13,627 nt of DNA from assembly GCA_027051265.1 (NCBI GenBank), contig JALTZH010000138.1:1-13627 (forward strand), given 5' to 3'. Of the stretch, positions 3,143 to 6,480 are shown piece after piece. The DNA is from an archaeon. Its GTDB lineage: Archaea > Hydrothermarchaeota > Hydrothermarchaeia > JALTZZ01 > JALUTC01. The position numbers and the translations under genes were made by a program. The notes beneath the pieces were generated by a model. It saw only the letters and a list, made by a program, of their open reading frames with translations. It did not search any database and was not told the origin of the DNA. How positions within the stretch are numbered: position 1 is the stretch's first letter; each line of letters starts with the position of its first letter.

Positions 3143-3406
3143 TTACACTAGTTTCATTAAGATTATAGAAATGAAAGTTAGGATTATACCTAAAGATATT
3201 CCCAACATGAACCTTAAAAGCTTATCAAGCTCTTCTCCAAATCTTTTAACTCATTTGTATTCTTTTAAATCCTTTTTCAACCTTTCCTCCATTTCTCTAA
3301 TATTGCTTCTCAATCTATTTTTCGTGTCTTTGATTATTTTGGCTCTTATAGCTTTTCTGAGTAGTAGCTGAAAAACAGCGAATGATATAAATTTAACAAT
3401 ACCATG
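3143..3406 (-). pseudogene. decayed coiled-coil protein with C-terminal membrane anchor
   Basis: On the - strand one frame is open from 3406 to TAA 3143-3145 except for a TGA at 3251-3253. Upstream of the TGA it reads a charged helix (AKIIKDTKNRLRSNIREMEERLKKDLKEYK). Downstream it reads VKRFGEELDKLLRF and one hydrophobic helix (MLGISLGIILTFISIILM). Coiled coil then a single C-terminal membrane helix is the architecture of abundant small archaeal proteins and of the broken gene at 4500-4830. Splitting such a protein with a stop between coil and anchor indicates decay. No good start codon precedes the coil. The 5' part runs into the 70-base repeat at 3343-3412, so the original N-terminus may have been replaced. 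Confidence 0.5.
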
Positions 3407-3412
3407 CTATCT
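3343..3412. repeat. 70-base repeat, copy 1: unoccupied TnpB insertion site
   Basis: Bases 3343-3397 align without gaps to 4962-5016 (I count 9 or fewer differences in 55). Bases 3398-3412 (AATACCATGCTATCT) align to 6465-6479 (AATATCATGCTACCT), 13 of 15 identical. In the second copy the TnpB element lies exactly between the two blocks. Copy 1 is therefore a related empty site, with TTAAC where the filled site has TTGAC. Read on the - strand both copies encode a similar hydrophobic stretch (SFAVFQLLLRKAIR versus SFVIFQLLIRKTIR), but differences are not concentrated at third codon positions, so this may be conserved DNA rather than protein. Confidence 0.8.
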
Positions 3413-3486
3413 GGATAGTCTTGATATCCATACTCGCAAGAAACCTTTAACCAAAGAGTTATGAGAGTCAAATATATTAATTAAAG

Positions 3487-3494
3487 TTATATAA
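3487..3494 (+). promoter_or_regulatory. TATA box of the HEPN-MNT operon
   Basis: TTATATAA lies about 53 bases before ATG 3543, predicting a transcript start near 3517 and a leader of about 26 bases. It is the only clear TATA box in the spacer before the pair. Confidence 0.4.
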
Positions 3495-3542
3495 ATGAAT
3501 CTATCGAGATGTGGAAAAAAGGTTATAATCGTAAATTGATAT

Positions 3543-3923
3543 ATGAAAAAAGAGGTGGAAATATTTTTAAAAAGAGCAGAAAGTTTTATTAAAGATGCTT
3601 TAGAGGATTTAAAAAGGGGAGACTATGATATAGCAATGTTTCATATAGAGATTGCATGCCAGCTTATTGTTAAAGCTAAACTTCTTGATTTAACTGGATA
3701 TTTTGAGAGAACACACAGCATAAGAAAACTACTTAAAGATTTATCGAAAATGTATAAAAACAAAGAAATAAATGATTTCATCGATAAAAATTGGAAAATT
3801 ATGAGAATTCTTGAATACTCTTATATTGCGGGGAGATATTTGCAAGTGGACTTCGAAGCAAAGGAAGTAAAAGAAGCTTTAAAATTTTATGAGAAGCTGA
3901 GGGATCTGTTATGGACTTCCTGA
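3543..3923 (+). CDS. HEPN-domain protein of a HEPN-MNT pair
   Basis: 126 residues, all-helical, matching the PF05168-type HEPN domain: paired helices with HIEIACQLIVKAKLL at 34-48 and RTHSIRKLLKDL at 56-67, ending in an AGRYLQVDFEAKEV helix. HEPN proteins next to minimal nucleotidyltransferases are usually read as toxin-antitoxin pairs in which HEPN is the RNase toxin. The catalytic Rx4-6H motif of HepT-type toxins is absent: the only His residues are 34 and 58 and neither has Arg at the right distance. It may therefore act as a nucleotide- or RNA-binding partner, or use other residues. Its stop overlaps the next gene by 13 bases, implying translational coupling. Confidence 0.88.
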   Translation: MKKEVEIFLKRAESFIKDALEDLKRGDYDIAMFHIEIACQLIVKAKLLDLTGYFERTHSIRKLLKDLSKMYKNKEINDFIDKNWKIMRILEYSYIAGRYLQVDFEAKEVKEALKFYEKLRDLLWTS

Positions 3924-4255
3924 AATTGGTTTATGAGGAAAGAAAAAAATATTTTGAAAATTTGGATGAATATTTAAAAGAAATAAAAAACATCGTTAAA
4001 AAAGAAATTTCGGAGTTTGAAATATATATTTTCGGTTCTGTTGCGGAGAATAGATATTCCATAGGCTTATCAGATATAGATGTTGCAATAGTTTCTGATG
4101 AATTTAAGGATAGAAAAAAAAAGTTGGATGTTTTTGGTATGTTAACATGGATTTTTATGGATTCCCCATTTGAATTCCATTTATTAACAAAAGAGCAATG
4201 GAACTTCTATAGAAGATTTATAAAAACCGTAAAAGCCGTTCTCTCCTCAAGGTAG
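3911..4255 (+). CDS. minimal nucleotidyltransferase (MNT) of a HEPN-MNT pair
   Basis: 114 residues. It has the nucleotidyltransferase core: Gly42-Ser43, then Asp55-x-Asp57 (GSVAENRYSIGLSDIDVAIV), with a likely third acidic residue Glu88 in PFEFHLL. MNT proteins of the PF01909/PF18765 type transfer nucleotides. In the bacterial MntA-HepT system MNT AMPylates the HEPN toxin and so acts as antitoxin. All three acidic positions appear intact, so the enzyme could be active. ATG 3911 lies inside the end of the HEPN gene (13-base overlap, different frame). HEPN first, MNT second is a common order in thermophilic archaea. The stop codon sits in a hairpin (4243-4283). Confidence 0.9.
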   Translation: MDFLKLVYEERKKYFENLDEYLKEIKNIVKKEISEFEIYIFGSVAENRYSIGLSDIDVAIVSDEFKDRKKKLDVFGMLTWIFMDSPFEFHLLTKEQWNFYRRFIKTVKAVLSSR

Positions 4256-4283
4256 CTTCATAATATTCAGCCACTTTGAGGAG
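4243..4283 (+). terminator. hairpin over the MNT stop codon followed by a T-rich run
   Basis: CTCCTCAAGGT (4243-4253) can pair with ACTTTGAGGAG (4273-4283) with a single G-U pair, leaving a 19-base loop. TTTTCCGTTCCGTTCTCTTT follows directly. The stop TAG is at 4253-4255. A hairpin plus pyrimidine/T-rich stretch fits a transcription terminator or a structured 3' end of the HEPN-MNT mRNA. Confidence 0.4.
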
Positions 4284-4299
4284 TTTTCCGTTCCGTTCT

Positions 4300-4986: not shown

Positions 4987-5016
4987 CTGAAAAATAACGA
5001 ATGATACGATTTTGAC
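4962..5016. repeat. 70-base repeat, copy 2, left part (filled TnpB site, ends in TTGAC)
   Basis: Aligns base for base with 3343-3397 and ends in TTGAC (5012-5016), immediately followed by the insertion sequence. The right-hand part of the same repeat resumes at 6465-6479. TTGAC is thus the inferred target of insertion, close to the TTGAT used by the well-studied ISDra2. Confidence 0.8.
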
Positions 5017-5055
5017 AAAGTCGATCCAAGCTTCGCCCTTTAGGGCGGAGTAACA

Positions 5056-5063
5056 TTTAAATA
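5056..5063 (+). promoter_or_regulatory. candidate tnpB promoter TATA box
   Basis: TTTAAATA inside the left end of the element. At normal archaeal spacing transcription would start near 5086, just before the 14-base inverted repeat, placing that hairpin in the tnpB mRNA leader. Confidence 0.35.
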
Positions 5064-5090
5064 TCGAACACTTCATTATATTTATAGGAA

Positions 5091-5180
5091 CGTGGCGAGG
5101 TGGGTAGATTGAGGAAGCTACGAGGAAGGCTAAAAAGAAACGAGCAAAATGTTTGTTTGGTATATGCCCACCTCGCCACG
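5091..5180 (+). repeat. perfect 14-base inverted repeat in the tnpB leader
   Basis: CGTGGCGAGGTGGG (5091-5104) is the exact reverse complement of CCCACCTCGCCACG (5167-5180), with a 62-base loop and a few more possible inner pairs. It lies between the predicted promoter and the ATG at 5223 and would form a very stable hairpin in mRNA or single-stranded DNA. Confidence 0.8.
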
Positions 5181-5222
5181 AAGCGTCGAAAAAAGAAAGA
5201 TATGAAGAGGAAACAAAAATCA

Positions 5223-6447
5223 ATGCTAACGAGAACATGTAGAGTAAGATTAGCCGTAGAGAAGGAAACGGAGACAAAACTTTTCAAGCTTGGAGATGTT
5301 TTCGCTAAATGCTGGAACGAAGTTAATTATCTCAGAAGGCAGCAATTCTTCAACAAGGTAGGTGTGGATTTTGCAACGACAGAAAGAATGATCTACGAGA
5401 AGTACAAGAACGTTTTAAAGGTTAACGCTCAGCAAGTTGCTAGAAAGAACGCAGAAGCTTGGAAATCTTTTTTCAAACTTCTTAAGCTTAAGAAGGAAAA
5501 CAAGGCCATGCTTCATAATTCCAAGACCACCGGGATATAAAAAGGATAGGAAGAAAAATAGATGAGAACCCTTTTTGATCATAAGGAACGATAGGTATGA
5601 AATTAAGGATTGCTACATTTATTTAAAAGACCTTAAGCTCAAACTAAAATATAAGGGTAGAATCCATATCAAAGGAAAACAAAGACGTCTCGAGATCCAC
5701 TACGACAGTGTAAGAAAAAGATGGTATGCTCATATACCTTTCTACGTCGAGGAAAAAATCGTGAGAAACGAATGGAGAAAAGTTCCATTAACTCCTCGTG
5801 GAAATAAACAAGCTGGTATCGATTTAGGGATTAACAACTTGTTTGCAGTGTTCGTGAAAGATGGAACGACTTTCTTAGTCAGCGGAAGACCTCTGAAAGC
5901 AGAGGCGTTCTATTGGAGAAAGAAGATTGCCGAGGCACAGTCTGAAGGAAATTTAGACAAAGTCAGAAAGTACTACATCATCTGGAGAAGCAGGTTCGAA
6001 GCTTACGTTAGATCTAATCTAAGAGATCTGTTCGAAAAATTATATCAAATAGGTGTCTCAGTAGTAAAAGTTGGATATCCTAAATACATTGCAAAAGAAC
6101 CAAATAAAAGTTCAAAAGTTAACTTCGAAATAACGAACTTGTGGAGCTATAGAAAAATACACCAATGGATTAAAGATCTTTGCGAGGAATACGGCATGAA
6201 ATATGTTCCAGTTGAAGAACAACACACATCAAAGACTTGTCCTCTTTGCAGAGAGATCCACAACAACGGTAGAAAGCACAGAGACTTGTTCGTCTGCTCA
6301 AAATTTAAAAAAGCTTTGAACGCTGATTTAGTTGCTGCTTTCAATATACTCCATAACGGTGAGTCCCCGAAAGGGGATAGCCGTAACGGGCCTGAAACCG
6401 GGCCCTTTAGCTTACTCCCCGCTCTCACAGGAACCCTCGCCCTTTAG
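5223..6447 (+). pseudogene. tnpB: RNA-guided nuclease TnpB (IS1341 type), inactivated
   Basis: TnpB is the omega-RNA-guided nuclease ancestor of Cas12. ATG 5223 starts a typical N-terminus (RTCRVRLAVEKETETKLFKL). The first frame, open from GTG 5100, stops at 5540. The family motif PRPPGYKKDRKK appears one frame over at 5521-5556, then meets TGA at 5563-5565; the remainder reads on to TAG 6447. So there are two lesions, a frameshift near 5510-5520 and a nonsense codon. The RuvC residues persist: Asp in GIDLGINN (about 5821), Glu in VPVEEQHTS (about 6214) and Asp in LNADLVAAFN (about 6322). The zinc finger is damaged: the first CPLC pair is present, but the second pair reads Cys-Ser-Lys-Phe where Cys-x2-Cys-Gly is expected. 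The final 30 residues are encoded by the structured right end, as usual. Confidence 0.88.
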
Positions 6448-6480
6448 GGCGGGGAGGAGGTCAGAATATCATGCTACCTA
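6361..6480 (+). ncRNA. candidate omega-RNA scaffold and guide at the right end of the TnpB element
   Basis: This stretch is far more GC-rich than its surroundings and full of stems: TCCCC-GAAA-GGGGA (6364-6377, a GNRA tetraloop), GGGCC/GGCCC (6388-6392 with 6401-6405), and CTCCCCGC (6415-6422) with GCGGGGAG (6449-6456). The last stem competes with the terminal hairpin CGCCCTTTAGGGCG (6438-6451). In studied TnpB systems the omega-RNA covers the tnpB 3' end and element end and takes its guide from the first ~16 flanking bases, here AATATCATGCTACCTA (6465-6480). Expression cannot be judged from sequence. Confidence 0.55.
6465..6479. repeat. 70-base repeat, copy 2, right part
   Basis: AATATCATGCTACCT matches AATACCATGCTATCT at 3398-3412 in 13 of 15 positions and continues the repeat interrupted at 5016. 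Similarity ends after this stretch. Confidence 0.7.

Follow-up and report, generated by a model that had tools for sequence, protein, structure and literature searches.

Evidence that a decayed archaeal TnpB-only element inserted 3′ of TGAC within a dispersed miniature repeat

Introduction

Among the described elements that carry TnpB, ISDra2 has the motif TTGAT. In Sulfolobus islandicus the motifs are TTTAA for elements with tnpA and TTTAT for those with a solo tnpB, the TAM having been predicted by alignment of left ends, with later biochemical confirmation for one protein (PMC10640517). Here we describe a TnpB element in a 13,627-nucleotide stretch of hydrothermarchaeal DNA, referred to throughout as the window (contig JALTZH010000138.1 of GCA_027051265.1), which belongs to a fragmented assembly of 257 contigs. 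The reading that most reasonably fits our observations, to which we give a probability of roughly 93%, is that a TnpB-only element of the IS605 superfamily inserted directly 3′ of TGAC in a miniature repeat, without duplication of the target.

Results

The TnpB-only, IS1341-type element occupies 5017-6464 of the plus strand (1448 bp), its ends being taken from the copies on contigs C21, C42, C79, C84 and C116 of the same genome and from many further right ends. BLAST with the element recovers copies on C21, C79, C42, C84 and C32, with fragments elsewhere. Subterminal hairpins are present at both ends: on the left CGCCCTTTAGGGCG at 5034-5047, which other left ends either conserve or retain with partial compensation, and on the right the same sequence at 6438-6451, within a conserved structured region (6353-6464, plus strand) that ends in GGAGGTCAG and is likely the omega-RNA scaffold. 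A consensus fold of the right end, from a five-copy alignment, contains 34 pairs, 5 of them changed on both sides, and its conserved hairpins are consistent with what is expected of an omega RNA. Right ends read ...GGGGAGGAGGTCAG with small variants only (GTCGG, GTCAA or GTCAC, for example), and those sampled, whether from this genome or from distant archaea, stop at the homologous base, immediately after GGAGGTCAG, before entering unrelated flanks. An earlier, sequence-only reading had placed the ends at 5017 and 6464 with no room for a target duplication, and had named copies ending at different bases as the observation that would speak against it; the copies examined end at the same bases as the window element. 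In genome G028, near 89588-89625 of contig C31 (L155), TTGAC is followed by 44 bp in which a left and a right end are fused around one common hairpin, probably a remnant of recombination between the two end hairpins.

Within the element, tnpB (5100-6447, plus strand) is divided into open reading frames at 5100-5540 and 5575-6447 that lie in different frames, with an in-frame stop in addition. The window protein matches the Pfam families OrfB_IS605 and Cas12f1-like_TNB, and tblastn with the intact 438-residue TnpB of the C21 copy aligns to the window in two frames, 73% and 83% identical, with an in-frame stop. Judged by its frames, the window tnpB is a pseudogene. The C21 protein itself scores 112 bits against the NCBIfam guided_TnpB model, for which the cut-off is 100 bits. 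The RuvC-II motif of TnpB usually has a glutamate context; in the TnpBs of C21 (L107:914-2230) and C194 (L033) this region instead reads VKVGYPKYIAKE or IFVGDPKGLR, which we treat as a lead only. In both proteins a glutamate precedes the zinc ribbon (AEEKNSSKTCP, VDEHNTSSRCP), and the ribbon of the C21 protein is without its fourth cysteine. Given the unusual RuvC-II context and the reduced zinc ribbon, even the intact C21 paralogue may be unable to cut DNA.

The flanks of the element, when joined, reconstitute a repeat that is found uninterrupted elsewhere in the window. As the sequence-only reading had reported, with correct coordinates, 70 bases at 3343-3412 recur as 4962-5016 plus 6465-6479, broken only by the TnpB element; the match is gap-free and 59/70 identical (46/55 on the left, 13/15 on the right), against a best score of 35/70 among 2000 shuffles. 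It also survived proper alignment, the second means of refutation that had been proposed, with free local alignment giving a gap-free pairing of 3343-3417 with 4962-5016 joined to 6465 onward, and the left 57 bases reach E = 7.8e-12 in BLAST against the genome. The 15-base right joint sits exactly at the element's end, and across all 13.6 kb of the window this 15-mer (6465-6479) finds only one match with two mismatches, at 3398, the offset expected from an empty-site model; the next-best matches have 5 mismatches. At the target the filled copy, whose left half (4962-5016, plus strand) ends in TTGAC at 5012-5016, is opposed by TTAAC at the homologous position of the empty copy (3393-3397, plus strand). 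The repeat resumes 3′ of the insertion at 6465-6485 (plus strand; AATATCATGCTACCTAAATA), the presumed guide region of the window TnpB copy, where the two copies differ at positions 5 and 13 of the first 15 guide bases, bearing out the earlier count of two or more mismatches beside TTAAC, and at positions 16-17 as well. With no more than 84% identity between the copies, and with the right half of the filled one missing beyond about 6485, this pair alone is not decisive. It is a paralogous, related empty site and not two states of one locus: the proposed filled/empty pair holds in that the uninterrupted relative is real, but that relative is a diverged member of a dispersed family.

That family is a miniature inverted-repeat element, of which the 70 bases form the left part, with relatives elsewhere in the assembly and in G002, a member of the same order. 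End-to-end alignment with copies on C40, C85 and C30 and in G002 delimits the uninterrupted window copy at 3343-3467 (plus strand, 125 bp), with tips CTCTTATAGCTTTT (3343-3356) and AAGAGTTATGAGAG (3454-3467); searches of this genome and of relatives give the inverted tips as CTCTTATAACTTTTCTGAT... and ...AAAGAGTTATAAGAG. The other copies are of 212 bp on C40, where 20-nt arms are 85% complementary, 111 bp on C85 and 140 bp on C30, with a right-end fragment on C34 and several copies in G002. The seven copies compared end to end (105-212 bp, two genomes) share with archaeal MITEs that they are short, non-coding and dispersed and have terminal inverted repeats; the window repeat differs from archaeal MITEs in having neither a clear target duplication nor an identified autonomous partner. 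Because these seven copies show no target duplication at their tips, we use the term MITE-like. Scanning the window against Rfam and for tRNAs gave no matches, and the repeat is therefore not a known RNA gene. We also considered the repeat as a gene or as an isolated end of the window's TnpB element, and rejected both on its own inverted tips and an internal sequence unlike the TnpB ends. The interior of the C40 repeat is matched in G002 by stand-alone elements (L146, L149, L150), whose tips are CTGTCCAAATAA...TTATTTGGACAG, suggesting that the miniature repeat is a composite of two miniature elements.

The filled copy is itself embedded in older sequence. At 4848-4961 (plus strand) lies a remnant of a multicopy coiled-coil, membrane-anchor gene, recognised by its matches to copies on C84, C173, C75 and C9 and in G002, and its similarity to these copies ends at about 4955-4961, next to the second miniature repeat at 4962. 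The order is thus nested, with the gene remnant outermost, the miniature repeat within it and the TnpB element innermost. Decayed copies of this gene for a small coiled-coil, membrane-anchored protein are found in the window at 3111-3342 (minus strand) and 4500-4830 as well as at 4848-4961, that at 4500-4830 being fuller and frameshifted, and both miniature repeats of the window adjoin such copies. Between the two repeats, at 3543-4255, is a HEPN and MNT (nucleotidyltransferase) gene pair in a typical toxin-antitoxin-like arrangement. A housekeeping protein of the window, used as a query against viral contigs, found no relatives.

Every mapped left end is directly preceded by TGAC, in agreement with the earlier reading, which set the target motif immediately 5′ to this end. 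The TTGAC named there is indeed what the filled copy carries, but the core is TGAC, the base before it being T, A, C or G among copies. Six left ends at different sites in this genome read TTGAC (window), ATGAC (C21, C42, C84, C79) and CTGAC (C116); elsewhere we find ATGAC in the sister species G001, TTGAC and twice GTGAC in the relative G058, and TTGAC in G028. Across the sequence retrieved, TGAC has a frequency of about 0.0011 per base. Were TGAC a fixed part of the element, it would also stand before every left end examined, and it might on that ground be the conserved left tip of an element that starts at 5013. This is very unlikely, as uninterrupted miniature repeats carry TTGAC at that place (the C40 copy and three in G002 read TTGACATAA at the target position), and as the N-6 DNA methylase gene that is split by the C21 copy regains its frame only when TGAC is left on the target side. 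Joined after TGAC, the C21 flanks give a 599-codon frame. No homologue of this methylase was found in 23 genomes of the phylum, and plasmid homologues were therefore used for comparison; the restored protein aligns through residue 255, the joint, with those of Phaeobacter, Alicyclobacillus and Chitinibacter, with gaps of 2-3 residues nearby. The uninterrupted repeats with TTGAC and the methylase frame restored with TGAC kept on the left flank are two independent lines of evidence, and both assign TGAC to the target and not to the element. Joined-flank searches in relatives for the loci on C79, C42 and C84 gave no clean empty allele, and a search of the literature for a TTGAC or TGAC TAM returned nothing relevant. 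The suggestion that filled and empty pairs such as that in the window are rarely available for defining a TAM was overstated, in that the motif can be read no less well from the other copies of this genome, among them the one on C21 with its restored methylase frame.

The uninterrupted copy at 3343 might once have held the element and lost it by precise excision before the sequence diverged, since members of the IS605 superfamily are expected to excise precisely and restore the target. We consider this very unlikely: all other repeat copies, including those from another family of the order, are without the element, which makes the uninterrupted form the simplest ancestral state, and no recognisable excision trace is present. 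Least probable, and unsupported by our observations, is that this copy escaped TnpB-guided copying, as had been offered, by virtue of TTAAC, in which the TGAC core has A in place of G, and of the two mismatches among the first 15 guide bases, given that the window tnpB is broken, that the sites are paralogous and allelic copying is not expected between them, and that the C30 repeat copy has a similar TTAAC-like site without any TnpB context. The other half of that proposal, later divergence, fits our data; since four uninterrupted copies (one in this genome, three in G002) have TTGAC, the TTAAC at 3393-3397 looks like ordinary divergence, and the 3343-3467 copy is best read as a diverged paralogue with no sign of having ever held the TnpB element.

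Y1 TnpA (PF01797) has no match in the whole assembly, which is 95% complete; a match is present in the relative G002. The TnpB copies on C84 (L109) and in the window (5500-5540) have a common frameshift or shortened stretch (AACAWGGCCATGCTTC) and the same left-end type, and because they lie at different sites, an already frameshifted tnpB copy seems to have moved. A 286-bp miniature derivative without tnpB, at 1577-1862 of C116 (L105), retains both ends and the RNA region, and the same derivative, with an identical internal junction (CTCGCAACCTATCATAACGG), lies around 2150-2434 of C139 in G001 (L078). The two have different flanks and sites in two species, both after TGAC. The flanks of the C116 derivative resemble a vapB/vapC junction. 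We offer, as a tentative and rather doubtful suggestion, that this TGAC-TAM lineage spreads without a recognisable Y1 transposase, by another transposase or by a TnpB-dependent route. The lack of a tnpA match in a genome with mobile copies that are broken or miniature is relevant to the mechanism by which TnpB-only elements are moved.

Discussion

We propose the following order of events for the window. A copy of the miniature repeat first landed in the decayed coiled-coil gene. The TnpB-only element then inserted 3′ of TGAC, within the TTGAC of that copy, duplicating no target bases, and the corresponding empty allele would read ...TTTTGAC followed directly by AATATCATGC... By analogy with studied TnpBs (PMC8612924, PMC10640517), active members of the family would derive an omega RNA from their right end, with the right flank as guide, and TGAC would act as the TAM that licenses the cutting of re-formed empty sites. 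The nesting of a TnpB element in a dispersed repeat provides a natural, related-empty-site test. The window element and its other copies give a well-supported assignment of ends and a TAM candidate, TGAC, for an archaeal TnpB family of which the intact C21 paralogue can be assayed.

The window element is an ordinary, decayed IS1341-type, TnpB-only member of the IS200/IS605 superfamily, with a TnpB-family protein and no tnpA, insertion 3′ of a short motif without duplication, subterminal hairpins on the left and on the right, and a structured, putative omega RNA at the right end. ISDra2 TnpB (PMC8612924) shares its protein family and general layout with the window element, but ISDra2 carries tnpA. 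The solo tnpB elements of S. islandicus (PMC10640517) are like it in their TnpB protein, a motif just 5′ of the left end, a structured right end and no adjacent tnpA; it differs from them in its motif, TGAC, and in that its tnpB is a pseudogene.
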